DNA from: Clostridia bacterium
Lineage (GTDB): Bacteria > Bacillota > Clostridia > Oscillospirales > CAG-272
Assembly: GCA_017461385.1 (NCBI GenBank)
Contig: JAFTXZ010000011.1
Coordinates: forward strand, 80,183-144,182
Direction: 5' to 3'
DNA: 64,000 nt
Made by a program: the position numbers and the translations under genes. Below the pieces are notes generated by a model, which was not told where the DNA came from, made no database searches, and was given only the letters and a program-made list of their open reading frames with translations. Below, one piece after another: positions 30,060-40,092 of the stretch (within the stretch, counting starts at the first letter, position 1; every line of letters starts with the position of its first letter).

Positions 30060-30088
30060 TTGACAGTCAAATATACATGGTATATAAT
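30060..30088 (+). promoter_or_regulatory. Promoter of the aromatic operon
   Basis: TTGACA at 30060, 17-nt spacer, TATAAT at 30083; exact consensus. RNA would begin near 30095, giving a leader of about 200 nt with an early ACTAAAG/CTTTAGT hairpin (30101-30122). Confidence 0.85.
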
Positions 30089-30172
30089 ATATTTTATCAT
30101 ACTAAAGTGTAAAAGCTTTAGTGTGAATAATTATTCGCATATTTGTCGAAATTTATCAAGGGGAGGAAAATT

Positions 30173-30223
30173 ATGTTCTATTTTAGCTATTATTTTTCAT
30201 TTTACTTTAGAATAGAATCATAA
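30173..30223 (+). CDS. Phe/Tyr-rich attenuation leader peptide
   Basis: A 16-codon frame from ATG 30173, preceded by the strong ribosome binding site AAGGGGAGGAA, to TAA 30221. It encodes MFYFSYYFSFYFRIES: five Phe and four Tyr in 16 residues, with codons at positions 2-4, 6-8 and 10-12 nearly all aromatic. No Trp codon is present. Such a peptide just ahead of a terminator is the hallmark of ribosome-mediated attenuation (as in pheA and pheST leaders). Here it precedes genes for aryl-acetate and aryl-pyruvate metabolism. Slow translation for lack of charged tRNA-Phe or tRNA-Tyr would favour read-through. Confidence 0.85.
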   Translation: MFYFSYYFSFYFRIES

Positions 30224-30226
30224 TTG

Positions 30227-30272
30227 AAGCGGGGTAATTTTTGACAATCACCGCTTTTAGCGGTTTTTTTAT
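30227..30272 (+). promoter_or_regulatory. Antiterminator/terminator switch of the aromatic operon
   Basis: The terminator is ACCGC TTTTA GCGGT (30250-30264) followed by seven T. The alternative antiterminator pairs AAGCGG (30227-30232), which starts 3 nt after the leader-peptide stop, with CCGCTT (30251-30256). The two structures share CCGC and exclude each other. A ribosome at the stop codon would cover AAGCGG and allow termination. A ribosome stalled at the Phe/Tyr codons leaves AAGCGG free, and transcription continues. Confidence 0.8.
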
Positions 30273-30297
30273 TTTTCACAGCAAATCGGAGGACATC

Positions 30298-31875
30298 ATG
30301 GACAACCCATTAGTGCTTTTAGATTATGGAATTCTGTTGATTTTTGCCATATCAATGGTAGTAATAGCAGTTATAACCCGTAATCGTTCAAAATCAGTAA
30401 ATGACTTCTTGCTTGCAGGAAAAAAGGGCTTAAACGGCTGGATGAGCGCCTTTTCCTACGGCACCACATATTTTTCAGCAGTAATTTTCATAGGATATGC
30501 AGGCAACTTTGGAAGGCAGTACGGGCTTGCCTCGGCTTGGATTGGTATTGCAAACGCAATAGTAGGCGCACTTTTTGCTTGGCTGGTTCTTGCAAAGAGA
30601 ACAAAGAATATGACAAGCGCCCTTGATTCCAAAACAATGCCAGACTTTTTTGAGAAAAGGTATGAGAGTAAAAATATAAAGCTAATCTCTGCAATAGTTG
30701 TATTTTTGTTTTTAATTCCTTACTCTGCCTCGGTTTACAATGGACTTAGCAGTCTTTTTGAGGCAGTGTTTGGTATTCCTGGCTGGGCAATTTGCTTAAT
30801 CCTTGCAGGGCTAACTGCGCTTTATCTGTTCTTCGGTGGCTATTTTGCAACCTCCGTTTCAGACTTCGTGCAGGGAATTATAATGCTGATTGGCGTAGTT
30901 GTTATGGTAATCCTGTTTATGAATAATAAGCCAGTCAACTGGGATTTAAGTCAGCTTACCTCAAATCCTGAGCTTACCTGGTTTACCTTTGGTAGCTCAA
31001 ACACAGGACTCTATGGCAATACAGTGTCGTTAATTTCCTTAATCCTGCTTACGTCCTTTGGCGTATGGGCACTGCCACAAACGGTACATAAGTATTACGC
31101 AATAAGAGACAAGAAGGCAATAATGCAGGGCACAGTGGTTAGCACAGCCTTTGCCTTAATAATAGGCTTCCTTGCATACTTCGTTGGCTCGCTTTCAACA
31201 ATTTTTGTAAATGCAGGCATGATAAAGGGCGACCTTGCAGGCGACCAAATTATACCGGCAATGCTAAGCTTCAGAAACATTATTCCAAACGGAGTAATCG
31301 GCTTAATTGCAGTATTAATTCTTTCTGCCAGCATGTCAACCCTTGCCTCAGTATCACTTGCCTCAGCCTCCGTTGTTGCAGTTGATATTTTCAAGGATAG
31401 AATCAAAAAGGATGCAAGCGACAAGCAGGTTAATATAGTAATGAAGACAATGTGTCTTGTTTTCGTTGCTATCTCAGTAATTATAGCAATTCTGAATAAC
31501 GAATTCAAAATCGCAGCCATAGCTTACCTAATGGGCATTAGCTGGGGAACCCTTGCAGGATGCTTTATGGGACCGTTTGTTTTGGGACTCTTGTGGAAGA
31601 AAACCACTAAAAAGGGCGCGTGGGCATCAATCATTTCCTCGCTTGTATTGACAGCTGGCTTGGTAATCTTCTTCGGCTACCACAAGTACTATCAGGAAAA
31701 TGGAATTATGTGTAGCTTTGGCGACGCAATCAAAACAGGCGTTAGCGTTTCCCCAATGATAGGCGTTATCTGTATGATTTTCTCGGTAATCATAACAGTG
31801 GTGGTAAGCCTTATGACAAAGCCACCTAAGGAAGAAACAATAAAGAAAGCATTTGAAAAGAAGGTAATAGAATAA
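30298..31875 (+). CDS. Sodium:solute symporter (SSS family)
   Basis: A 525-residue membrane transporter with about 13 hydrophobic segments. It has the SSS family signatures SVNDFLLAGKKGLNGWMSAF near residue 40 and the helix-8 region SASMSTLASVSLASASVVAVDI. It couples sodium entry to uptake of a small molecule. Substrate inference: PaaL-type phenylacetate permeases belong to this family, and the next genes activate and convert aryl acetates, so phenylacetate or a related acid is likely. ATG 30298 follows CGGAGG. It is the first structural gene behind the Phe/Tyr attenuator and ends 1 nt before the paaK ATG. Confidence 0.88.
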   Translation: MDNPLVLLDYGILLIFAISMVVIAVITRNRSKSVNDFLLAGKKGLNGWMSAFSYGTTYFSAVIFIGYAGNFGRQYGLASAWIGIANAIVGALFAWLVLAKRTKNMTSALDSKTMPDFFEKRYESKNIKLISAIVVFLFLIPYSASVYNGLSSLFEAVFGIPGWAICLILAGLTALYLFFGGYFATSVSDFVQGIIMLIGVVVMVILFMNNKPVNWDLSQLTSNPELTWFTFGSSNTGLYGNTVSLISLILLTSFGVWALPQTVHKYYAIRDKKAIMQGTVVSTAFALIIGFLAYFVGSLSTIFVNAGMIKGDLAGDQIIPAMLSFRNIIPNGVIGLIAVLILSASMSTLASVSLASASVVAVDIFKDRIKKDASDKQVNIVMKTMCLVFVAISVIIAILNNEFKIAAIAYLMGISWGTLAGCFMGPFVLGLLWKKTTKKGAWASIISSLVLTAGLVIFFGYHKYYQENGIMCSFGDAIKTGVSVSPMIGVICMIFSVIITVVVSLMTKPPKEETIKKAFEKKVIE

Positions 31876-31876
31876 A

Positions 31877-33181
31877 ATGATATGGGCAAAGGAAGAAACC
31901 TTATCAAGGGCTGAAATGGAAGCATTACAGCTAGAAAGGCTTCAAGAAACAGTAAAAAGAGTATACGAAAAGGTTCCACCTTATCGTGCAAAAATGGACG
32001 CAATCGGCTTAAAGCCAGAGGACATAAAATCCCTTAAGGATTTGTCAAGGCTACCATTTGTAACAAAGCAGGACTTAAGAGATAATTACCCCTTTGGGCT
32101 TTTTGCAGTACCTAAGGAGGAGCTACTTAGAATTCACGCATCCTCAGGTACAACAGGAAAGCCAACGGTAGTAGGCTACACTAAGGGAGATATGGAAACC
32201 TGGACGGAGTGCGTTTCCCGTATTGCCTGTGCAGGCGGTGCAGATTCAAGCGACGTTGCACAAATTTGCTTCGGCTACGGTATGTTTACAGGCGCACTGG
32301 GACTTCACTACGGACTTGAAAACATAGGCGCGACGATAGTGCCCTCCTCAACGGGAAACTCAGAAAAACAGCTTATGTATATGAAGGACTTTGGCACAAC
32401 CCTTTTAGTTGCGACACCATCCTATGCACTTCGCTTAGCCGAGGTGGCAAGAGAGCTTGGCATCGACCCACAAAGGGATCTAAAGGTAAAAATCGGTCTT
32501 GTAGGCAGTGAGCTTTTAACCGATGCTATGCGTGAGGAAATGTACAAATACTGGGGTAGTGATATGAAGGTTACCTCAAACTACGGTATGAGCGAGCTTA
32601 TGGGACCTGGCGTATCAGGCGAATGTGAGCATCTTTGTGGTATGCACATAAACGAGGACTTCTTCATTCCTGAAATTATCAATCCGGAAACTGGCGAGGT
32701 GCTACCTGAGGGCGAGTGGGGTGAGCTTGTAATCACCTGCATCAAAAAGGAAGCGCTTCCACTTATCAGATACAGAACAAAGGACATAACAAGGCTAATT
32801 TACGAGCCATGTAAATGCGGCAGAACAACCTGCCGTATGGAAAACCTCTCAGGCAGAAGCGACGATATGCTCAAGATAAGAGGCGTAAACGTATTCCCAA
32901 GCCAGATTGAGGAGGTTGTCCTTTCCGTTGAGGGACTAGGTCCACACTACGAAATTATCGTAGAGAGGGACGGCTACTCTGACAAGCTAACGGTAAGAGT
33001 AGAGCTTGCAGTTGCAACCGACTCCTTCAAGGAGCTTGAAAGAATTGAAAAAACAGTTAGAAATAAACTAAAGGTTATGCTGGGCTTAGATGCTAAGGTT
33101 CAGCTTGAATCACCAAACACTCTTGCTAGATTCGAGGGTAAGGCCAAGAGAGTAAGAGATTTACGAAAGGAGCAAAAATAA
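31877..33181 (+). CDS. paaK: Phenylacetate-CoA ligase, copy 1
   Basis: An AMP-forming ligase that turns aryl acetates into aryl-acetyl-CoA. The 434-residue protein has the adenylate-forming motif RIHASSGTTGKPTVVGYT (about 85-102), FGYGMFTGALGLHYGLE, the SNYGMSELMGPGV block and LIRYRTKDIT. The CxC..C cluster (CKCGRTTCRMENLSGRSDDML) and RGVNVFPSQIEE are typical of PaaK. Its stop overlaps the iorA start by 1 nt. Together with iorAB it could run acetate to CoA ester to pyruvate, or the reverse. A second copy lies downstream of iorB, 50-60 percent similar by eye, suggesting different aryl substrates. Confidence 0.93.
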   Translation: MIWAKEETLSRAEMEALQLERLQETVKRVYEKVPPYRAKMDAIGLKPEDIKSLKDLSRLPFVTKQDLRDNYPFGLFAVPKEELLRIHASSGTTGKPTVVGYTKGDMETWTECVSRIACAGGADSSDVAQICFGYGMFTGALGLHYGLENIGATIVPSSTGNSEKQLMYMKDFGTTLLVATPSYALRLAEVARELGIDPQRDLKVKIGLVGSELLTDAMREEMYKYWGSDMKVTSNYGMSELMGPGVSGECEHLCGMHINEDFFIPEIINPETGEVLPEGEWGELVITCIKKEALPLIRYRTKDITRLIYEPCKCGRTTCRMENLSGRSDDMLKIRGVNVFPSQIEEVVLSVEGLGPHYEIIVERDGYSDKLTVRVELAVATDSFKELERIEKTVRNKLKVMLGLDAKVQLESPNTLARFEGKAKRVRDLRKEQK

Positions 33182-34920
33182 TGGCAGAAAAGAGAATAAT
33201 GCTTGGTAACGACGCAATTGCTCGTGGCGCTTATGAGGCGGGAGTTAAGGTTTCAAGCTCATACCCAGGTACACCAAGCACAGAAATCAGTGAGTTTTTA
33301 GCAAAATACGATGAGGTATATACCGAATGGGCACCAAACGAAAAGGTTGCCCTTGAGGCAGCAGCAGGCGCTAGCCTGGCAGGCGTGCGCTCAATGGCTT
33401 GTATGAAGCACGTAGGCTTAAACGTAGCCTCCGACCCACTTTATACCCTTGCGTACACAGGCGTAAACGGTGGACTTGTAATAGTTGTAGCCGACGACCC
33501 AGGTATTGCAAGCTCACAAAATGAGCAGGACACAAGAATGATTGCAAGAAGCGCTCACCTACCTGTAGTTGAGCCATCTGATAGTAACGAGGCAAAGGAA
33601 TTTTTTAAGTATGCCTTTGACCTTAGCGAAAAATACGACACCCCTGTTATCTTTAGAACAACCACAAAGCTTTCTCACTCTCAAAGCGTGGTTGAGCTTG
33701 GCGAAAGAGTAGTGCCGGAGGATAAGGCTTACGAAAGACAGGTGCCAAAGTACGTTATGATGCCTGCTTCTGCAATCGGCAGACATAAGGTGGTTGAGGC
33801 AAGAGAGGACAAAATGACTCTTGACGCACCAAGCTTCCCAATAAATAAGGTAGAATACAACGACAAAAAGATAGGCTTTATCACCTCAGGTATTCCTTAT
33901 CAGTACGTTAAGGAAGCGTGCCCACAGGCAAGCGTATTAAAGCTGGGAGTTGTAAACCCACTTCCAAAAGCGTTAATTGAGGAATTTGTAAAAGAGGTTG
34001 AAACCGTTTACGTATTTGAGGAGCTTGAGCCGGTTATTGAGGAGCAGGTTAGAGCTTGGGGACTTAACGTAAAGGGCAAGGAGCTATTTACAAAGCAGGG
34101 CGAATATAGTGCAAATATGCTTAAAAAGGTTATCTATGGCATAGATGAGTGCCAGTTTGATAAGGCAGAGGCGCCAGCCCGTCCACCAATTCTGTGTCCG
34201 GGCTGTCCACATAGAAGCGTATTTTCAGTTCTTAACAAGCTGAAAATCCACGCAGCAGGCGACATCGGATGCTATACACTAGGTGCAGTTGCTCCGCTTA
34301 ACGTAATTGACACAACAATTTGTATGGGCTCCTCTATTTCTCTGCTTCACGGCATGGAAAAGGCAAAGGGCAAGGAATACATAAAGAATTGGGTTGCAAC
34401 AATCGGCGACTCCACGTTCCTGCATACAGGCGTAAACTCACTTATCAATATGGTTTACAACAAATCTACAGGTACCGTTATGATTCTTGACAACCGTACA
34501 ACAGGTATGACAGGACATCAGGAGCATGCAGCAACAGGTAAGACTCTAAAGGGCGAGGACACCTACGCAATTGATTTAGCAGACCTTTGCCGTAGCATAG
34601 GAGTTCCTAACGTAGTTGAAATCAACGCCTTTGACGTACCGGGACTTGAGAAGCTGATTAAGGAAAGCGTTTCCTCTGATACTCTTACCGTAATTATTGC
34701 AAAGGCGCCTTGCGCACTCTTGAAGGGACAAAAATTCCCAAATAAGTGTGTGGTAGATGCCGAAAAGTGCAAAAAGTGCGGAATGTGTATGAAAATTGGC
34801 TGTCCTGCAATGACAAAGACAGAAAATGGCACAGTAAAAATTGATGAAACAATGTGTAATGGCTGTGGACTTTGCAAGAATTATTGTAAGTTTGGCGCTA
34901 TTTCCACGGTTGAAAGATAG
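33181..34920 (+). CDS. iorA: Indolepyruvate ferredoxin oxidoreductase alpha subunit
   Basis: A 579-residue TPP enzyme that interconverts aryl pyruvates (from Phe, Tyr, Trp) and aryl-acetyl-CoA plus CO2 with ferredoxin. N-terminal pyrimidine domain: LGNDAIARGAYEAGVKVSSS then YPGTPSTEI. TPP domain: PGCPHRSVF, GDIGCYTLG, GDSTFLHTGVN and LDNRTTGMTGHQEH. The C-terminal ferredoxin-type part has two 4Fe-4S motifs, CKKCGMCMKIGCP and CNGCGLCKNYCKFGAI (about 530-575). Length and order match IorA. It lies between paaK and iorB in one operon. With reduced ferredoxin it can run toward carboxylation, which would give a biosynthetic route. Confidence 0.96.
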   Translation: MAEKRIMLGNDAIARGAYEAGVKVSSSYPGTPSTEISEFLAKYDEVYTEWAPNEKVALEAAAGASLAGVRSMACMKHVGLNVASDPLYTLAYTGVNGGLVIVVADDPGIASSQNEQDTRMIARSAHLPVVEPSDSNEAKEFFKYAFDLSEKYDTPVIFRTTTKLSHSQSVVELGERVVPEDKAYERQVPKYVMMPASAIGRHKVVEAREDKMTLDAPSFPINKVEYNDKKIGFITSGIPYQYVKEACPQASVLKLGVVNPLPKALIEEFVKEVETVYVFEELEPVIEEQVRAWGLNVKGKELFTKQGEYSANMLKKVIYGIDECQFDKAEAPARPPILCPGCPHRSVFSVLNKLKIHAAGDIGCYTLGAVAPLNVIDTTICMGSSISLLHGMEKAKGKEYIKNWVATIGDSTFLHTGVNSLINMVYNKSTGTVMILDNRTTGMTGHQEHAATGKTLKGEDTYAIDLADLCRSIGVPNVVEINAFDVPGLEKLIKESVSSDTLTVIIAKAPCALLKGQKFPNKCVVDAEKCKKCGMCMKIGCPAMTKTENGTVKIDETMCNGCGLCKNYCKFGAISTVER

Positions 34921-34931
34921 GAGGGCGTAAT

Positions 34932-35492
34932 ATGAATATAATGGTAGTTGGCGTTGGCGGTCAGGGTACACTGCTAACCAGTAGAATTATAGGCAAAACT
35001 GCCCTTGCAGGTGGCTATGACGTAAAGCTTTCCGAGGTGCACGGCATGGCACAAAGAGGCGGTAGCGTTGTTACCTACGTAAGATATGGGGATAAGGTTT
35101 TTGAGCCTACCTGTGAGGAGGGAACGGTTGACGTTTTAATCTCCTTTGAAAGGCTAGAGGCGCTTCGCTATGCACACTTCCTTAAAAAGGACGGCATTAT
35201 GGTCGTAAACGACACAAGAATTGACCCAATGACCGTTGTAATAGGTGCAAAGGAATATCCACAGGGTATTTTGGAGGAGCTTTCACAAAATCACAGGATT
35301 TATACCATAGACGGTGGAAAAATCGCAAAGGAGCTTGGCAACTCAAAGGTACTAAACTCCGTAGTTTTAGGACTTAGCGCAAAGCATATTGGCTTTACTA
35401 AGGAGGAATGGATTAAGGTTTTGCAAGAAACCGTACCACCTAAAACAATTGAAATCAACACGAAGGCATTTGAAAGAGGCTACGACGCCTAG
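34932..35492 (+). CDS. iorB: Indolepyruvate ferredoxin oxidoreductase beta subunit
   Basis: The 186-residue gamma-type domain subunit of IOR. It starts MNIMVVGVGGQGTLLTSRII and contains KLSEVHGMAQRGGSVVTYVR, the family signature that contacts CoA and the TPP subunit. It partners with IorA, whose gene ends 11 nt upstream; an AGGAGG site lies in the gap. It is followed 11 nt later by the second paaK. There is no sign of truncation. Confidence 0.96.
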   Translation: MNIMVVGVGGQGTLLTSRIIGKTALAGGYDVKLSEVHGMAQRGGSVVTYVRYGDKVFEPTCEEGTVDVLISFERLEALRYAHFLKKDGIMVVNDTRIDPMTVVIGAKEYPQGILEELSQNHRIYTIDGGKIAKELGNSKVLNSVVLGLSAKHIGFTKEEWIKVLQETVPPKTIEINTKAFERGYDA

Positions 35493-35503
35493 GGAGAAAT
35501 AGT

Positions 35504-36802
35504 ATGATTTGGAATAAAGAAATGGAATGTATGTCCCCAGAGGACAAAAAAAGACTTCAAAGCGAAAGACTTGTAAAGCTAGTTAAGTACGTATACGATA
35601 ACGTAGAATTTTATCGCAAGAGAATGGACGAGTACGGTGTAAAGCCAGAGGATATTAAGTCAATCGACGATATCGTTAAGCTTCCATACACCACAAAAAA
35701 TGACCTTCGTGATACGTATCCATTTGGGCTTTTTGCAGCTCCTCATTCTGATATTGTAAGAATCCATGCGTCATCAGGTACAACAGGTAAGGCAACGGTT
35801 GTTGGCTATACTCAAAACGATATTGACGTGTGGAGCGAGTGCGTTGCTCGTTGTATGACAATGGCAAACGTAACAAAGGACGACATAATTCAGGTAGCCT
35901 ACGGCTATGGACTTTTCACAGGTGGCTTAGGCGCACATTATGGCGCAGAGAGGCTAGGCGCTATGGTTGTGCCAATGAGCACAGGTAACTCTAAGAAGCT
36001 AACCACAATGATGGTTGACTTCGGCGCTACTGCAATTGCTTGTACACCATCTTATCTACTACATCTATCTGAGGTTTTAAGAGATGAGGGCTTGATTGAC
36101 AAAATCAAGCTAAAGTCAGCTATTTGTGGCGCTGAGCCTTGGACGGAAAAGATGAGAAACGAAATCGAAAGTCGTCTACACGTTACAGCCCACGACATTT
36201 ACGGACTTAGCGAGATTATGGGTCCAGGCGTTGCCTGTGACTGTGTTCACCACGCAGGACTTCATATTTGCGACGACCATTTCTATCCAGAAATCATTGA
36301 CCCAAAGACCCTTGAGCCAGTAGCAGACGGAGAAACAGGTGAGCTAGTATTCACAACCCTTACAAAGGAGGGTATTCCACTTATCCGTTATAGAACAAAG
36401 GACCTAACAAGCATCACAAGAGAGGCTTGCGAATGTGGTAGAACAAGTGCAAGAATTTCTCGCTTCAAGGGAAGAAGCGACGATATGCTTATCATAAGAG
36501 GCGTAAACGTATTCCCAAGTCAGGTAGAGGCTGCTCTTGTTGAGGTTGAGGAGGTAACACCTCACTATATGATGATAATCGACAGAGAGAATAATCTTGA
36601 TAGCCTTGAAATTCAGGTTGAGGTAGATACAAGGTACTACACCGACGAAATTCGTGGTATCGAAAAGCTAACAAAGAAGATTTCACAGGTAATCCAAAGT
36701 GCACTTGGCATTAGCGCAAAAATCAAGCTAATGGGACCAAACACACTAAAGCGTAGCGAGGGCAAGGCAGTGCACGTAATCGATAACAGAAAGCTATATT
36801 AA
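35504..36802 (+). CDS. paaK: Phenylacetate-CoA ligase, copy 2
   Basis: A 432-residue AMP-forming aryl-acetate-CoA ligase with RIHASSGTTGKATVVGYT (about 85-102), YGYGLFTGGLGAHYGAE, DIYGLSEIMGPGV, LIRYRTKDLT, CECGRTSARISRFKGRSDDM and RGVNVFPSQVE. It matches copy 1 in every motif, but the acyl-pocket residues differ (for example TMANVTKDD versus ACAGGADSSD). ATG 35504 follows GGGAG. Two ligases flanking iorAB suggest separate activation of, for example, phenylacetate and 4-hydroxyphenylacetate or indoleacetate. Which is which cannot be told from sequence. Confidence 0.93.
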   Translation: MIWNKEMECMSPEDKKRLQSERLVKLVKYVYDNVEFYRKRMDEYGVKPEDIKSIDDIVKLPYTTKNDLRDTYPFGLFAAPHSDIVRIHASSGTTGKATVVGYTQNDIDVWSECVARCMTMANVTKDDIIQVAYGYGLFTGGLGAHYGAERLGAMVVPMSTGNSKKLTTMMVDFGATAIACTPSYLLHLSEVLRDEGLIDKIKLKSAICGAEPWTEKMRNEIESRLHVTAHDIYGLSEIMGPGVACDCVHHAGLHICDDHFYPEIIDPKTLEPVADGETGELVFTTLTKEGIPLIRYRTKDLTSITREACECGRTSARISRFKGRSDDMLIIRGVNVFPSQVEAALVEVEEVTPHYMMIIDRENNLDSLEIQVEVDTRYYTDEIRGIEKLTKKISQVIQSALGISAKIKLMGPNTLKRSEGKAVHVIDNRKLY

Positions 36803-36816
36803 GAGAGGTAAGAAAG

Positions 36817-37245
36817 ATGACAGCTAATCAAGTATCCGTTTTTATAGAAAACAGACAGGGAAGACTAGGACAGGTTCTCTCTGTGCTAAAGGAAAACGAC
36901 ATAAATATTTTGTCAATCAGCCTAGCTGATACAACTGAATACGGACTTTTAAGGCTTATCGTAAATAAGCCAACCGAGGCAAGAGACGTTTTATTGAAGG
37001 CAGGCTTTTCCTCAATGCTTACAGAGGTGTTAATCATAAAGGTGCCACACCAAACAGGCGCACTTCAAAAAATACTTGCAGTAATTGCTGAAAACAACGT
37101 TAGCATTGAATATATGTATGGCTTAAGCGTTGAATCAACTGACGCCTCAATCGTTATGAAGACAAACGAGCTTGACAAGGCTTGCAAAATTTTAGCAGGC
37201 AGTAACATCGGCACACTAACCTCAAAGGATATTGAAGCACTATAA
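36817..37245 (+). CDS. ACT-domain protein (amino acid sensor)
   Basis: A 142-residue protein consisting of two ACT domains: QVSVFIENRQGRLGQVLSVL, then KENDINILSISLAD (residues 3-70), and VLIIKVPHQTGALQKILAVI, then AENNVSIEYMYGLS (about 72-140). There is no catalytic domain. ACT pairs bind amino acids and regulate partner enzymes. Short ACT proteins of this type are common beside paaK and ior genes in anaerobes, so it probably senses Phe, Tyr or Trp for the pathway. AGAGAGG precedes ATG 36817. The following amidohydrolase gene starts 4 nt after its stop. Confidence 0.9.
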   Translation: MTANQVSVFIENRQGRLGQVLSVLKENDINILSISLADTTEYGLLRLIVNKPTEARDVLLKAGFSSMLTEVLIIKVPHQTGALQKILAVIAENNVSIEYMYGLSVESTDASIVMKTNELDKACKILAGSNIGTLTSKDIEAL

Positions 37246-37249
37246 GAAA

Positions 37250-38059
37250 ATGGTAATCGACCTTCACACACATATTTTTCCCGACAAAATAGCGGAGAAA
37301 ACCATCTCGGCTCTTTCAAAAAGTGCTTGCGTTACGCCTTATGCAAACGGCACGAAGGCTGGCTTGCTTGAAAGCATGGACAAGGCAGGGGTTAATATTT
37401 CAATAAACCTACCTGCAATGACGAAGGCGTCTCAGCTAGATAGCATAAATGCCTTTGCTAAGTGCTTAAACGAGGAAAATCATACACGTCCCCGCATAAT
37501 TTCCTTTGCAGGCTTCCACCCCGATATAGAAAACTATAAAGAGGAGCTTTGTAAAATAAAGGAAAACGGCTTCCTTGGAATAAAGCTTCATCCGGATTAT
37601 CAGGGTACGTTTTTTGACGACGAAAGATATATAAATATCTTAAAAAGTGCAAAGGAGCTTGACCTGATTACCGTTACCCACGCAGGACTTGACGGAGCCT
37701 TTGTAGGTCAGGAAATAAAGTGCACGCCCCGTCGTGTTTTAAGAGCTCTTGATAAAATAGGTGGCTACTCAAAGCTTGTCCTTGCCCACCTGGGTGGCAA
37801 TGAGCTGTTTGATGAGGTGTATAAGGAACTGGCTGGATATGACATTTATTTTGACACCTCTTATGTCTTAATAAACACACCAAAGCAAGATTTTCTAAAA
37901 ATGGTGGAAAAGCACTCAGCCGATAAAATCCTTTTTGCAACCGATAGCCCATGGCAGTGTCAAGGGCAAATGATAAACAAGCTAAAAAGCTATGAATTAC
38001 CAAAGGAAGCAGAGGACAAAATCCTTTATAAAAATGCAAAAAACTTATTAAATATTTAG
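37250..38059 (+). CDS. Amidohydrolase family protein (TIM-barrel metal hydrolase/decarboxylase)
   Basis: A 269-residue protein with MVIDLHTHIFPDKIAEKTIS (metal HxH at residues 5-7), GFLGIKLHPDYQGTFFDD, VTHAGLDGAF, LVLAHLGGNELFD and the final FATDSPWQCQGQM (Asp about 231). This is the amidohydrolase-2 pattern shared with ACMSD-type decarboxylases and hydrolases. The substrate is unknown; its place in the aromatic operon suggests an aryl amide, ester or carboxylate. I start at ATG 37250, because the upstream in-frame ATG at 37232 lies inside the ACT gene and has no ribosome binding site. Confidence 0.8.
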   Translation: MVIDLHTHIFPDKIAEKTISALSKSACVTPYANGTKAGLLESMDKAGVNISINLPAMTKASQLDSINAFAKCLNEENHTRPRIISFAGFHPDIENYKEELCKIKENGFLGIKLHPDYQGTFFDDERYINILKSAKELDLITVTHAGLDGAFVGQEIKCTPRRVLRALDKIGGYSKLVLAHLGGNELFDEVYKELAGYDIYFDTSYVLINTPKQDFLKMVEKHSADKILFATDSPWQCQGQMINKLKSYELPKEAEDKILYKNAKNLLNI

Positions 38060-38066
38060 GTGAACT

Positions 38067-39254
38067 ATGTTAAATGAAAAAATGTACGCCTTGGGCAACA
38101 AGCGCTCAATCATAAGAGAGATTTTTGAATACTGTAAGAGTCGAGCTGGGGAAATAGGACCAGACAAGGTTTTTGATTTCAGTATAGGAAATCCAAGCGT
38201 TGAGCCACCCAAGGAAATAAGCGAGGCAATTATTGACCTTGTAAATAATGAAAGCTCTGTTTTACTTCACGGCTACACCTCAGCGCAGGGAGACCTTGGA
38301 GTAAGACAAGCAATAGCTAAGGAAATAAACGAAAAATTTGGCGCAGGGGTTAATGAAAATAGCATTTATATGACCTGTGGCGCCGCTGCATCTCTTACAA
38401 TTTCCTTACGCGCCCTTCTTAACGAGGGGGACGAGTGTGTGGCTTTTGCACCCTTCTTTACAGAATATCGTGTTTTTGTAGAAAACGCAGGGGGCAAGCT
38501 TGTAGTATCCACACCTATGGAAAAGACCTTCCAGGTTGACGTGCGCGACCTTGAAAGCAAAATAAGTGAAAAAACAAGAGCCATTATTATGAATTCCCCA
38601 AACAACCCAAGCGGAGTAGTTTATAGCGAGGAAACAATAAAGGCTGTTTGCAAGGTATTGGAGAAGAAGCAAAGAGAATACGGTAATCCTATTTATCTAA
38701 TCGCTGACGAGCCATATAGAGAGCTTGTTTTTGATGATATTAAGGTGCCATACCTAATGAACTATTATGATAACACAATAGTATGCTACTCCTACTCAAA
38801 GGCACTATCCTTACCAGGTGAAAGAATTGGCTATATTGCAGTTAGCCCAAGGGCACAGGACTCACAGAAGGTATATCTTGCCGTTTGTGGCGCAGGCAGG
38901 TCTCTTGGTTACGTGTGCGCGCCAAGCCTTTTTCAGCAGGTAATAAAGCGCACAATAGGTGCTAAGGTAGATGTAAATATTTACAAGGAAAACAGAGATA
39001 TACTTTATAACGCACTTACCGAATACGGCTACGAGTGCGTACAGCCAGACGGTGCATTCTACCTATTCGTAAGGGCTCTTGAGGACGATGCCTATAAATT
39101 CTTTGAAAAGGCAAAGCAAAAGGAAATCCTAGTAGTACCCTGTGATGATTTTGGCGTTAGTGGTTACGTAAGAATTGCCTACTGCGTTGACAAGCAAAGA
39201 ATTGTAAACGCACTTCCAGCCTTCAAATCACTTGCCGAGGAATATAAGAAATAA
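38067..39254 (+). CDS. PLP aminotransferase, class I/II
   Basis: A 395-residue fold-type I aminotransferase with DFSIGNPSVEPPKEI, the LHGYTSAQGDLGVRQAI block, NSPNNPSGVVYSEET, IADEPYRELVF and the PLP lysine in SYSKALSLPGERIGYI (about residue 245). In this operon the likely job is amino transfer between aryl pyruvates and Phe, Tyr or Trp, completing an aryl acetate to amino acid route with PaaK and IorAB. The family alone does not fix the substrate. It is the last gene of the operon, followed by a strong terminator. Confidence 0.9.
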   Translation: MLNEKMYALGNKRSIIREIFEYCKSRAGEIGPDKVFDFSIGNPSVEPPKEISEAIIDLVNNESSVLLHGYTSAQGDLGVRQAIAKEINEKFGAGVNENSIYMTCGAAASLTISLRALLNEGDECVAFAPFFTEYRVFVENAGGKLVVSTPMEKTFQVDVRDLESKISEKTRAIIMNSPNNPSGVVYSEETIKAVCKVLEKKQREYGNPIYLIADEPYRELVFDDIKVPYLMNYYDNTIVCYSYSKALSLPGERIGYIAVSPRAQDSQKVYLAVCGAGRSLGYVCAPSLFQQVIKRTIGAKVDVNIYKENRDILYNALTEYGYECVQPDGAFYLFVRALEDDAYKFFEKAKQKEILVVPCDDFGVSGYVRIAYCVDKQRIVNALPAFKSLAEEYKK

Positions 39255-39257
39255 AAT

Positions 39258-39286
39258 AAAAAGCACTTCAATCGAAGTGCTTTTTT
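39258..39286. terminator. Bidirectional terminator at the end of the aromatic operon
   Basis: AAAAAGCACTTC AATC GAAGTGCTTTTTT; A-run and T-run on either side, shared with the convergent gene. Confidence 0.9.
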
Positions 39287-40092
39287 CATTGTAGATACGA
39301 CCTAATTTTATCAATGCATCTGTTCATTTTTTCAACATCACAGACACCGCCTTGGTCAAAGCATGTAGCCTCACTTGTAAGCGTGCCATTATAACCAATA
39401 GATTTTAGAAAGCTGAAAAATTTATCAAAATCCACAATTCCGTCGCCAAGTGGCAACACACGAAGATTGGACCAGTCCTTGTAGGCACAGGTGCAATCGT
39501 TTACGTGAAAATGCTCAATATTCTTGACAACGTGTCTGTATTTTGGGTCGTAGAGCAAATCAAGCTCCTTGTGAAACTCTGCCATTTTAGTGTCAAATGT
39601 AAGCTTAATATCTGGATAGCACTTAACTAATTTGCTTAGATGGCTCATAGGGCTTGAGTTTTTGCAAACCACGTTTTCACAGGTTAGCAAAAGTCCATAC
39701 TCCTTGGCAATTTCATCAAGCCTGCCAAGGTGTTTAATATTAAAATCTATGTTGCTATCGGAAATAATTCCATTCCATAGGTGTAAAACAAGCTTTTTTG
39801 CCCCCACACCCTTGGCAAGTGAGCAATTTAGCCTCATTATATTATGAGCCTCGTCAACTCGTTCATAGCTTAGAAGCTCACCAATTTGCTTTTCAAGGTG
39901 AAAAACGTAAACAGGCTTTTCAAGGCTATTTACAAGAGCCTTTATTTCATCGACCTTTTCGTGCCAGCTTTCATAAAACATAAGCTCCAGTCCATCACAA
40001 TTAAGCCTTGGCACAATATCCTTAAGCAAATAAAAGTTTCTGCCGTTAGGTCTGCCAATAAAAGCACCTGTGGAGCACAAAACTAAGCTCAT
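39286..40092 (-). CDS. Sugar phosphate isomerase/epimerase-like TIM-barrel protein
   Basis: A 268-residue protein of the xylose-isomerase-like TIM-barrel group (AP endonuclease 2 fold). It contains LVLHLWNG, LLLTCENVVCKNSSP (metal-binding Glu), IKLTFDTKMAEFH (Asp and His), EHFHVNDC and LPLGDGIVDFDKFFSFLKSI, then GYNGTLTSEA. These positions match the metal ligands of the family. The substrate is unknown. ATG 40092 has GGGGGGAT upstream; the 54-residue in-frame extension passes through the promoter and is not used. It stands alone and converges on the aromatic operon. Confidence 0.82.
   Translation of the reverse strand: MSLVLCSTGAFIGRPNGRNFYLLKDIVPRLNCDGLELMFYESWHEKVDEIKALVNSLEKPVYVFHLEKQIGELLSYERVDEAHNIMRLNCSLAKGVGAKKLVLHLWNGIISDSNIDFNIKHLGRLDEIAKEYGLLLTCENVVCKNSSPMSHLSKLVKCYPDIKLTFDTKMAEFHKELDLLYDPKYRHVVKNIEHFHVNDCTCAYKDWSNLRVLPLGDGIVDFDKFFSFLKSIGYNGTLTSEATCFDQGGVCDVEKMNRCIDKIRSYLQ

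Follow-up and report, generated by a model that had tools for sequence, protein, structure and literature searches.

In a 64,000-nt window of a Clostridia bacterium contig (GCA_017461385.1, JAFTXZ010000011.1, positions 80,183 to 144,182), an eight-gene operon that joins an AMP-forming-type ligase, an indolepyruvate ferredoxin oxidoreductase (IOR) and an aminotransferase is preceded by a short frame rich in Phe and Tyr codons and by a terminator with a competing pairing. The operon probably makes aromatic amino acids from arylacetates and is switched on by Phe/Tyr scarcity through ribosome-mediated attenuation. The mechanism, leader-peptide attenuation, is of a known kind; its target here appears to be new. 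Its genes run in the order sss-paaK-iorA-iorB-paaK-act-amidohydrolase-aminotransferase on the + strand and, as an initial annotation of this DNA had claimed, lie almost without gaps, the closest pair overlapping by 1 nt and the widest spacing measuring 14 nt. All coordinates below are positions in the window.

The operon is headed by a sigma-70-type promoter (30060-30088, +) made up of TTGACA (30060-30065), a 17-nt spacer and TATAAT (30083-30088). Described in the initial annotation as an exact consensus, it matched at 12 of 12 positions on direct reading. At the transcript start lies a 12-pair inverted repeat, TCATACTAAAG/CTTTAGTGTGA (30097-30126, +), a possible operator or 5' hairpin. Direct reading also bore out the claimed 16-codon leader with its strong ribosome site: the Shine-Dalgarno (SD) sequence GGGGAGGAAA (30160-30169, +) contains GGGGAGG at 30160-30166, and the leader ATG follows 6 nt further at 30173. 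The leader MFYFSYYFSFYFRIES (30173-30223, +) carries 5 Phe and 4 Tyr codons, nine of 16 in all, and no Trp codon. Phe is encoded by TTC at codon 2 and TTT at codons 4, 8, 10 and 12, and Tyr by TAT at codons 3, 6 and 7 and TAC at codon 11; the remainder are ATG (1), AGC (5), TCA (9 and 16), AGA (13), ATA (14) and GAA (15), with the stop TAA at 30221-30223. The frame begins 125 nt before the symporter ATG at 30298, which has its own GGAGG.

Three bases past the leader stop starts AAGCGG (30227-30232, +), the 5' arm of a predicted antiterminator. Its partner CCGCTT (30251-30256) is also part of an intrinsic terminator, ACCGCT-TTT-AGCGGT plus a T-run (30250-30270, +), whose hairpin (30250-30264) has 6 pairs, 4 of them G-C, one pair more than first quoted. 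Because CCGCTT serves both structures, antiterminator and terminator are mutually exclusive, as had been proposed. At the Rfam gathering score, the only matches in the whole window were two tRNAs and the RNase P RNA, which places the leader element outside the T-box and known leader families; a T-box (RF00230) at this operon was thereby ruled out.

These parts suggest the following switch. RNA polymerase would start at the promoter and a ribosome would load on the leader. With charged tRNA-Phe and tRNA-Tyr ample, the ribosome would reach the stop and cover AAGCGG, leaving CCGCTT to pair in the terminator, and transcription would end near 30270. With either charged tRNA scarce, the ribosome would stall within the nine Phe/Tyr codons, and the free AAGCGG would pair with CCGCTT, preventing the terminator and allowing transcription of all eight genes. 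We modelled this by folding the RNA with ribosome-covered bases blocked, setting the ribosome edge 15 nt past the first base of the P codon. For the window, the model gave the antiterminator for all three stalls (codons 4, 8 and 12) and the terminator with the ribosome at the stop, where it covers the AAGCGG arm.

The leader recurs before the same kind of operon in other genomes. The window genome (G000) is a 1.54-Mb assembly, 75% complete, and its named close relatives are chiefly ruminant hindgut metagenome-assembled genomes (MAGs) labelled Clostridia or Oscillospiraceae. IorA relatives (E <= 1e-50) were present in 62 of 96 relatives. Among the 24 loci with IorA at least 78% identical (L031-L054), 16 held the complete eight-gene set; the other 8 were truncated at contig ends or had no match to sss, paaK2 or the amidohydrolase. 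A cultured relative, Lachnoclostridium phytofermentans, has a homologous cluster in the order iorA-iorB-act-paaK-act (L119). To look for further leaders, we scanned the window together with 120 related loci, each on its operon strand (1,773,961 bases in all, with some contigs duplicated). Candidates had to follow an SD sequence, span 9-32 codons and contain 6 or more aromatic residues at a share of 40% or higher; frames within longer open reading frames were excluded. The scan returned four distinct places, every one before an ior-paaK operon: the window, L031 in genome G005 (on the same contig as L073; MFYFSYYFSFYFTIES, beginning 129 nt before the symporter match), L034 in G017 (MFYFGYFYYYFYHKIA, 142 nt) and L089 in RGIG1865 (MYYFYPVYEFYYYHLT, 148 nt). 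All four leaders have 16 codons and occupy the same place, and the three from relatives likewise lack Trp codons. The L089 leader was detected with a wider list of ribosome sites and missed with a narrower one.

L031 is a near relative, and conservation around its leader was graded, with identity to the window of 100% in the promoter (29 of 29 positions), 94% in the leader (2 mismatches and 1 gap over 52 columns), 90% in the attenuator, 82% in the 5' untranslated region (UTR) and 54% far upstream. L034 and L089 kept the leader with an altered terminator, within a set of 54 distinct upstream regions (near-identical ones removed) of which 4 have leaders. The L034 terminator, CCGCC-TAT-GGCGG, has just the CCGC/GCGG core in common with that of the window, and its antiterminator would form by pairing of CAUAG...GCGG with CCGCCUAUG. 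The L089 terminator is unrelated to the window's, and leader codons 6-9 there additionally pair with the stretch after the stop, an arrangement that resembles the 1:2, 2:3, 3:4 pairing plan of the E. coli trp attenuator.

Other aromatic-rich frames were examined and set aside. Tyr-rich matches in another genus (L181-L183) lie within frames of 426-445 codons, and frames from looser scans (including TTG-started ones in L205, L208, L216 and L220) had no ribosome site or lay upstream of or across the promoter. Upstream of paaK1 in L104 there is a terminator/antiterminator-like pair, and the short frame there, MLTINKTS, is non-aromatic by eye. A leader-pattern search of 395 family genomes, a sample that did not include G017, gave 5 matches, of which only those in G000 and G005 were at the operon and the other three fell within 426-445-codon frames of another genus; the reversed-pattern control yielded 0 among the matches listed. 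No exact copy of a leader pattern was found in viral contigs.

Related operons carry a second type of aromatic starvation sensor. In all 36 relatives with IorA copies of 39-57% identity, which belong to the same family or order, we located T-boxes genome-wide and compared their positions with those of IorA by eye. Eight of the 36 had a T-box upstream of an iorAB-paaK operon, on the same strand and no more than 4.8 kb away, compared with about 0.3 expected from roughly 7 T-boxes per 2 Mb and 39 IorA copies. Specifiers were read from Rfam columns 91-93 and the rule GAA-(n)-XXX-N-stem, a procedure verified on valS (GUA; L159, L169), trpX (UGG; L178) and thrS (ACC; L152), with these control genes confirmed by NCBIfam on part of each gene. 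Each of the eight was read as specifying an aromatic amino acid (Tyr in 3, Trp in 4 and Phe in 1). A ninth T-box, in the named MAG locus L137, lies about 440 nt upstream of iorA and was read as UUC (Phe). The L152 T-box belongs to thrS and was not counted for iorA.

In G030 (L225, G030:C48, 435-6159), the Phe T-box (UUC) directly precedes iorA-iorB-paaK-act, with a DAHP synthase gene 241 nt after act. Tyr specifiers (UAC) were found before FadD-like ligase-sss-iorA-iorB-paaK-act-aminotransferase in G038 and G043 and before sss-iorA-iorB-paaK in G033. Trp specifiers (UGG) stand directly before iorA-iorB-paaK in G045 and G089 (L226, L227), are separated from the operon by ECF transporter genes in G058 (L230), and in G067 precede trpB, with sss-paaK-iorA-iorB-act next under its own promoter. 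The operons of G045, G089 and G058, whose IorA copies are 39-45% identical, are probably indoleacetate-to-tryptophan operons. Some of these readings are sensitive to detail: a one-base register shift would read L137 as GUU and G038/G043 as ACA/ACC, the T-boxes of G089 and G058 have no usual GAA, those of G030, G058 and G089 score under the Rfam gathering score of 93, and many contigs in the survey end close to the operon. Two loci, L229 and L059, have operons that open with an extra FadD-like acyl-CoA ligase. T-boxes occur in all 29 genus genomes, and an Rfam search of L031-L038 found none in those loci.

A T-box before an iorAB-paaK operon is a predicted sensor of uncharged aromatic tRNA, and the window leader would fulfil this role through a different mechanism. 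The aromatic-specific T-boxes on some related operons imply the same sign of control as the leader, and the presence on some arylacetate-IOR operons of different types of sensor for aromatic starvation argues for a biosynthetic role. Together with the Phe/Tyr leaders whose terminators have changed, they support the initial proposal of an attenuated supply route.

We assigned gene families from NCBIfam and Pfam. The first gene (30298-31875, +) encodes an SSS-family (SSF) sodium:solute symporter (PF00474, 183.4 bits) that falls below every listed NCBIfam cut-off and likely imports arylacetate. IorA, the IOR alpha subunit (33181-34920, +; TIGR03336, 700.8 bits against a cut-off of 650.9), and the beta subunit IorB (34932-35492, +; NF005325, 262.1 bits against 230) pass their curated cut-offs, in agreement with the identities first given. 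The two proteins initially named PaaK (31877-33181 and 35504-36802, both +) scored 515.3 and 568.8 bits against TIGR02155 and did not reach the 646.3-bit cut-off of that equivalog, yet both are related by PF14535, and the second also by its nearest solved chains, the phenylacetate-CoA ligases 2y27 and 4r1l; we therefore call them PaaK-like AMP-forming ligases, putatively for arylacetates. They are followed by an ACT-domain pair protein (36817-37245, +; PF19571, 97.0 bits), likely an amino acid sensor, an amidohydrolase-family protein (37250-38059, +; PF04909, 58.1 bits) and a class I/II aminotransferase (38067-39254, +; NF005305, 564.3 bits against 376; closest solved structure 3ele).

From these families, the symporter most likely takes up arylacetates, the PaaK-like ligases would activate them with ATP, IorAB most likely reductively carboxylates the CoA ester to an arylpyruvate using low-potential ferredoxin, and the aminotransferase would yield Phe and Tyr. 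The same chemistry (arylacetate, CO2 and reduced ferredoxin to arylpyruvate, then to the amino acid) underlies the aryl-acid route to aromatic amino acids, which Allison reportedly described in rumen bacteria in 1965. Methanogens also possess such a route (Porat et al., as cited in PMC4162585), and the portion of that account consulted mentions no RNA control.

Several findings weigh against this reading. The initial annotation had counted a leader not conserved in close relatives as grounds for abandoning it: three other genomes do carry the leader, but it is missing from 50 of the 54 distinct upstream regions. These include that of G008 (L032), although its IorA is 92% identical and it shares both promoter hexamers and the transcript start with the window. 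No leader was found in G014 (L153), and no SD-preceded one in 24 further family loci, some of which share contigs with named loci; most relatives have just a promoter followed by a short 5' UTR. T-boxes are similarly patchy, with none near iorA in 28 of the 36 relatives surveyed and, in a T-box regular-expression search of 80 named loci (9 of the 80 also run through Rfam), only that of L137 tied to the operon. Folding is just mildly unusual, with z = -2.0 for 100 nt (6 of 200 shuffles equally good) and z = -1.6 for the 55-nt attenuator (18 of 200). In the ribosome model, L031 and L034 each deviated at one of the four positions (codons 4, 8 and 12 and the stop), forming the terminator with a stall at codon 12 in L031 and at codon 8 in L034, and behaved as expected at the other three. 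L089 formed a terminator throughout, complete with the ribosome at codon 8 and shortened with it at codon 4, codon 12 or the stop; either that attenuator follows another logic or the model oversimplifies. Finally, the window genome has its own de novo Phe/Tyr route.

The sparse distribution and modest fold scores, together with the frequency of TTT and TAT codons in AT-rich spacers, are what would be expected if the frame were a chance occurrence and the hairpin simply ended some short transcript from upstream, as ordinary terminators do. We regard this as highly improbable: when 30060-30297 was dinucleotide-shuffled 20,000 times, a frame behind an SD sequence with at least 6 aromatics at 40% or more arose 112 times, one with at least 9 at 50% or more once, a terminator 7 times, and leader (at least 6 aromatics) plus terminator never; moreover, four genomes share a 16-codon leader at the same place, and in L031 it is conserved above its flanks. 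The main control could instead lie with a DNA-binding regulator at the inverted repeat, the leader serving for fine-tuning only. The repeat adjoins the promoter, and its pairing is retained in L031 through G-U pairs (by eye); GCTAAAA/TTTTAGC strings occur in 13 of the 54 upstream regions compared with 2.9 in crude block shuffles, and leaderless relatives retain the operon. A related degenerate motif is absent from most of the 54 regions, however, and lies at varying distances where present, so that this arrangement seems unlikely to us, though less so than chance. An ARG-box-like string near 30125 was discarded since it is not conserved in L031.

The direction of flux could also be the reverse, with the operon oxidizing aromatic amino acids by transamination, IOR, arylacetyl-CoA formation and arylacetate release and obtaining reduced ferredoxin in return, in the manner of Stickland-type fermentation or of acetogens that form indoleacetate. 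IOR works oxidatively in some gut bacteria, and two reports describe oxidative IOR or 2-oxoacid:ferredoxin oxidoreductase (OFOR) activity in indoleacetate-making acetogens (PMC13290082) and in tyrosine oxidation by C. scatologenes (PMC13285125); the latter also cites a report that a Bacteroides IOR beside an AMP-forming ligase takes part in the conversion of Phe to phenylacetate. Many oxidative loci, however, include an ATP-recovering phosphotransacylase and kinase or an ADP-forming ligase, such as the phosphate butyryltransferase and butyrate kinase of many acetogen loci with OFOR-driven oxidation (PMC13290082), and C. difficile iorAB accompanies butK in a unit listed as SigL-dependent (PMC7438776), whereas the window ligases are of the AMP-forming PaaK kind. 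Such ligases typically favour CoA-ester synthesis, and their presence beside IOR has been argued to suggest biosynthesis, according to PMC13285125. A catabolic operon switched on by scarcity of Phe/Tyr or Trp would moreover be perverse, and that kind of sensor recurs as both leaders and T-boxes. We thus consider an oxidative role improbable, and favour arylacetate-to-amino acid synthesis under attenuation.

Gene content also bears on direction. The idea that the window genome lacks a Phe pathway was ruled out, as G000 has prephenate dehydratase (PDT), prephenate dehydrogenase (PDH), aroB and chorismate synthase, and with this full de novo set the operon would be a second source of Phe/Tyr. Of 29 genus genomes, 27 have PDT and 27 have PDH. 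The exceptions, G004 and G019, had matches to neither, and these two were also the ones without chorismate synthase among 8 genomes checked. G019, 96% complete, has all eight operon genes (L037) and no leader; G004 had no IorA match. Since the PDT, PDH and chorismate synthase genes are clustered in G000 (C19:32041-38357), one lost contig could account for their absence in G004 or G019.

Leader-peptide attenuators of amino acid operons are known for trp, pheA, his and ilv. In Firmicutes, S. aureus ilv-leu has an experimentally supported Leu-rich example (PMC5794164). The window element resembles all of these in its frame rich in the regulated amino acid, its antiterminator/terminator switch and its activation when charged tRNA is scarce. 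It differs in that its target is the re-use of arylacetates by an AMP-forming ligase and IOR rather than a de novo pathway, in a genus that uses T-boxes elsewhere. The Acholeplasma element uORFC-13-1, a predicted upstream frame with at least one Phe codon beside a terminator before aroF (PMC8632094), is similar in pairing a Phe-containing frame and terminator with an aromatic amino acid gene, and differs in host, gene and peptide, the window leader having nine Phe/Tyr codons. A listing of Geobacter operons classes iorAB-paaK as biosynthetic, for 'tryptophan', and gives it a conserved 5' sequence (PMC2700814); this operon is alike in being deemed biosynthetic and in its conserved upstream element, but the portion seen speaks just of 'possible promoters and riboswitches' and names no leader peptide or T-box. 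None of the literature matches listed described leader-peptide or T-box control of ior-paaK operons, in a search that left most subscription papers outside, so that priority is uncertain; the words phenylacetate, indole and ferredoxin are all missing from the main text of a T-box survey of 2008 (PMC2494555).

More broadly, and with somewhat less than an even chance in our estimation, ior-paaK operons may form an order-wide branch of regulated aromatic amino acid biosynthesis from waste arylacetates in gut Clostridia, under interchangeable starvation sensors. These would be Phe, Tyr or Trp T-boxes in some lineages and, in the window lineage, Phe/Tyr leader attenuators that evolved or were rebuilt on at least two occasions, giving one design in the window and G017 and another in RGIG1865. 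The end of the shikimate pathway may have been lost in some species, which would then live on this route. A 2026 paper treats the making or breaking-down role of gut clusters of IOR and AMP-forming ligase as unsettled (PMC13285125), and another notes that gut-made arylacetates reach the host (PMC13290082). For lineages that bear one, a starvation sensor on the operon would offer a genetic answer on direction and predicts that they consume, not release, arylacetates when Phe, Tyr or Trp is short. The range of operons under leader-peptide attenuation would also gain one for arylacetate salvage, within a genus otherwise rich in T-boxes.

The operon is flanked on the other strand by genes for an AzlC protein (PF03591; 29109-29816, -) and a TIM-barrel protein (PF01261; 39286-40095, -). 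Relatives of both likewise flank the operon in L031, with their sides swapped.

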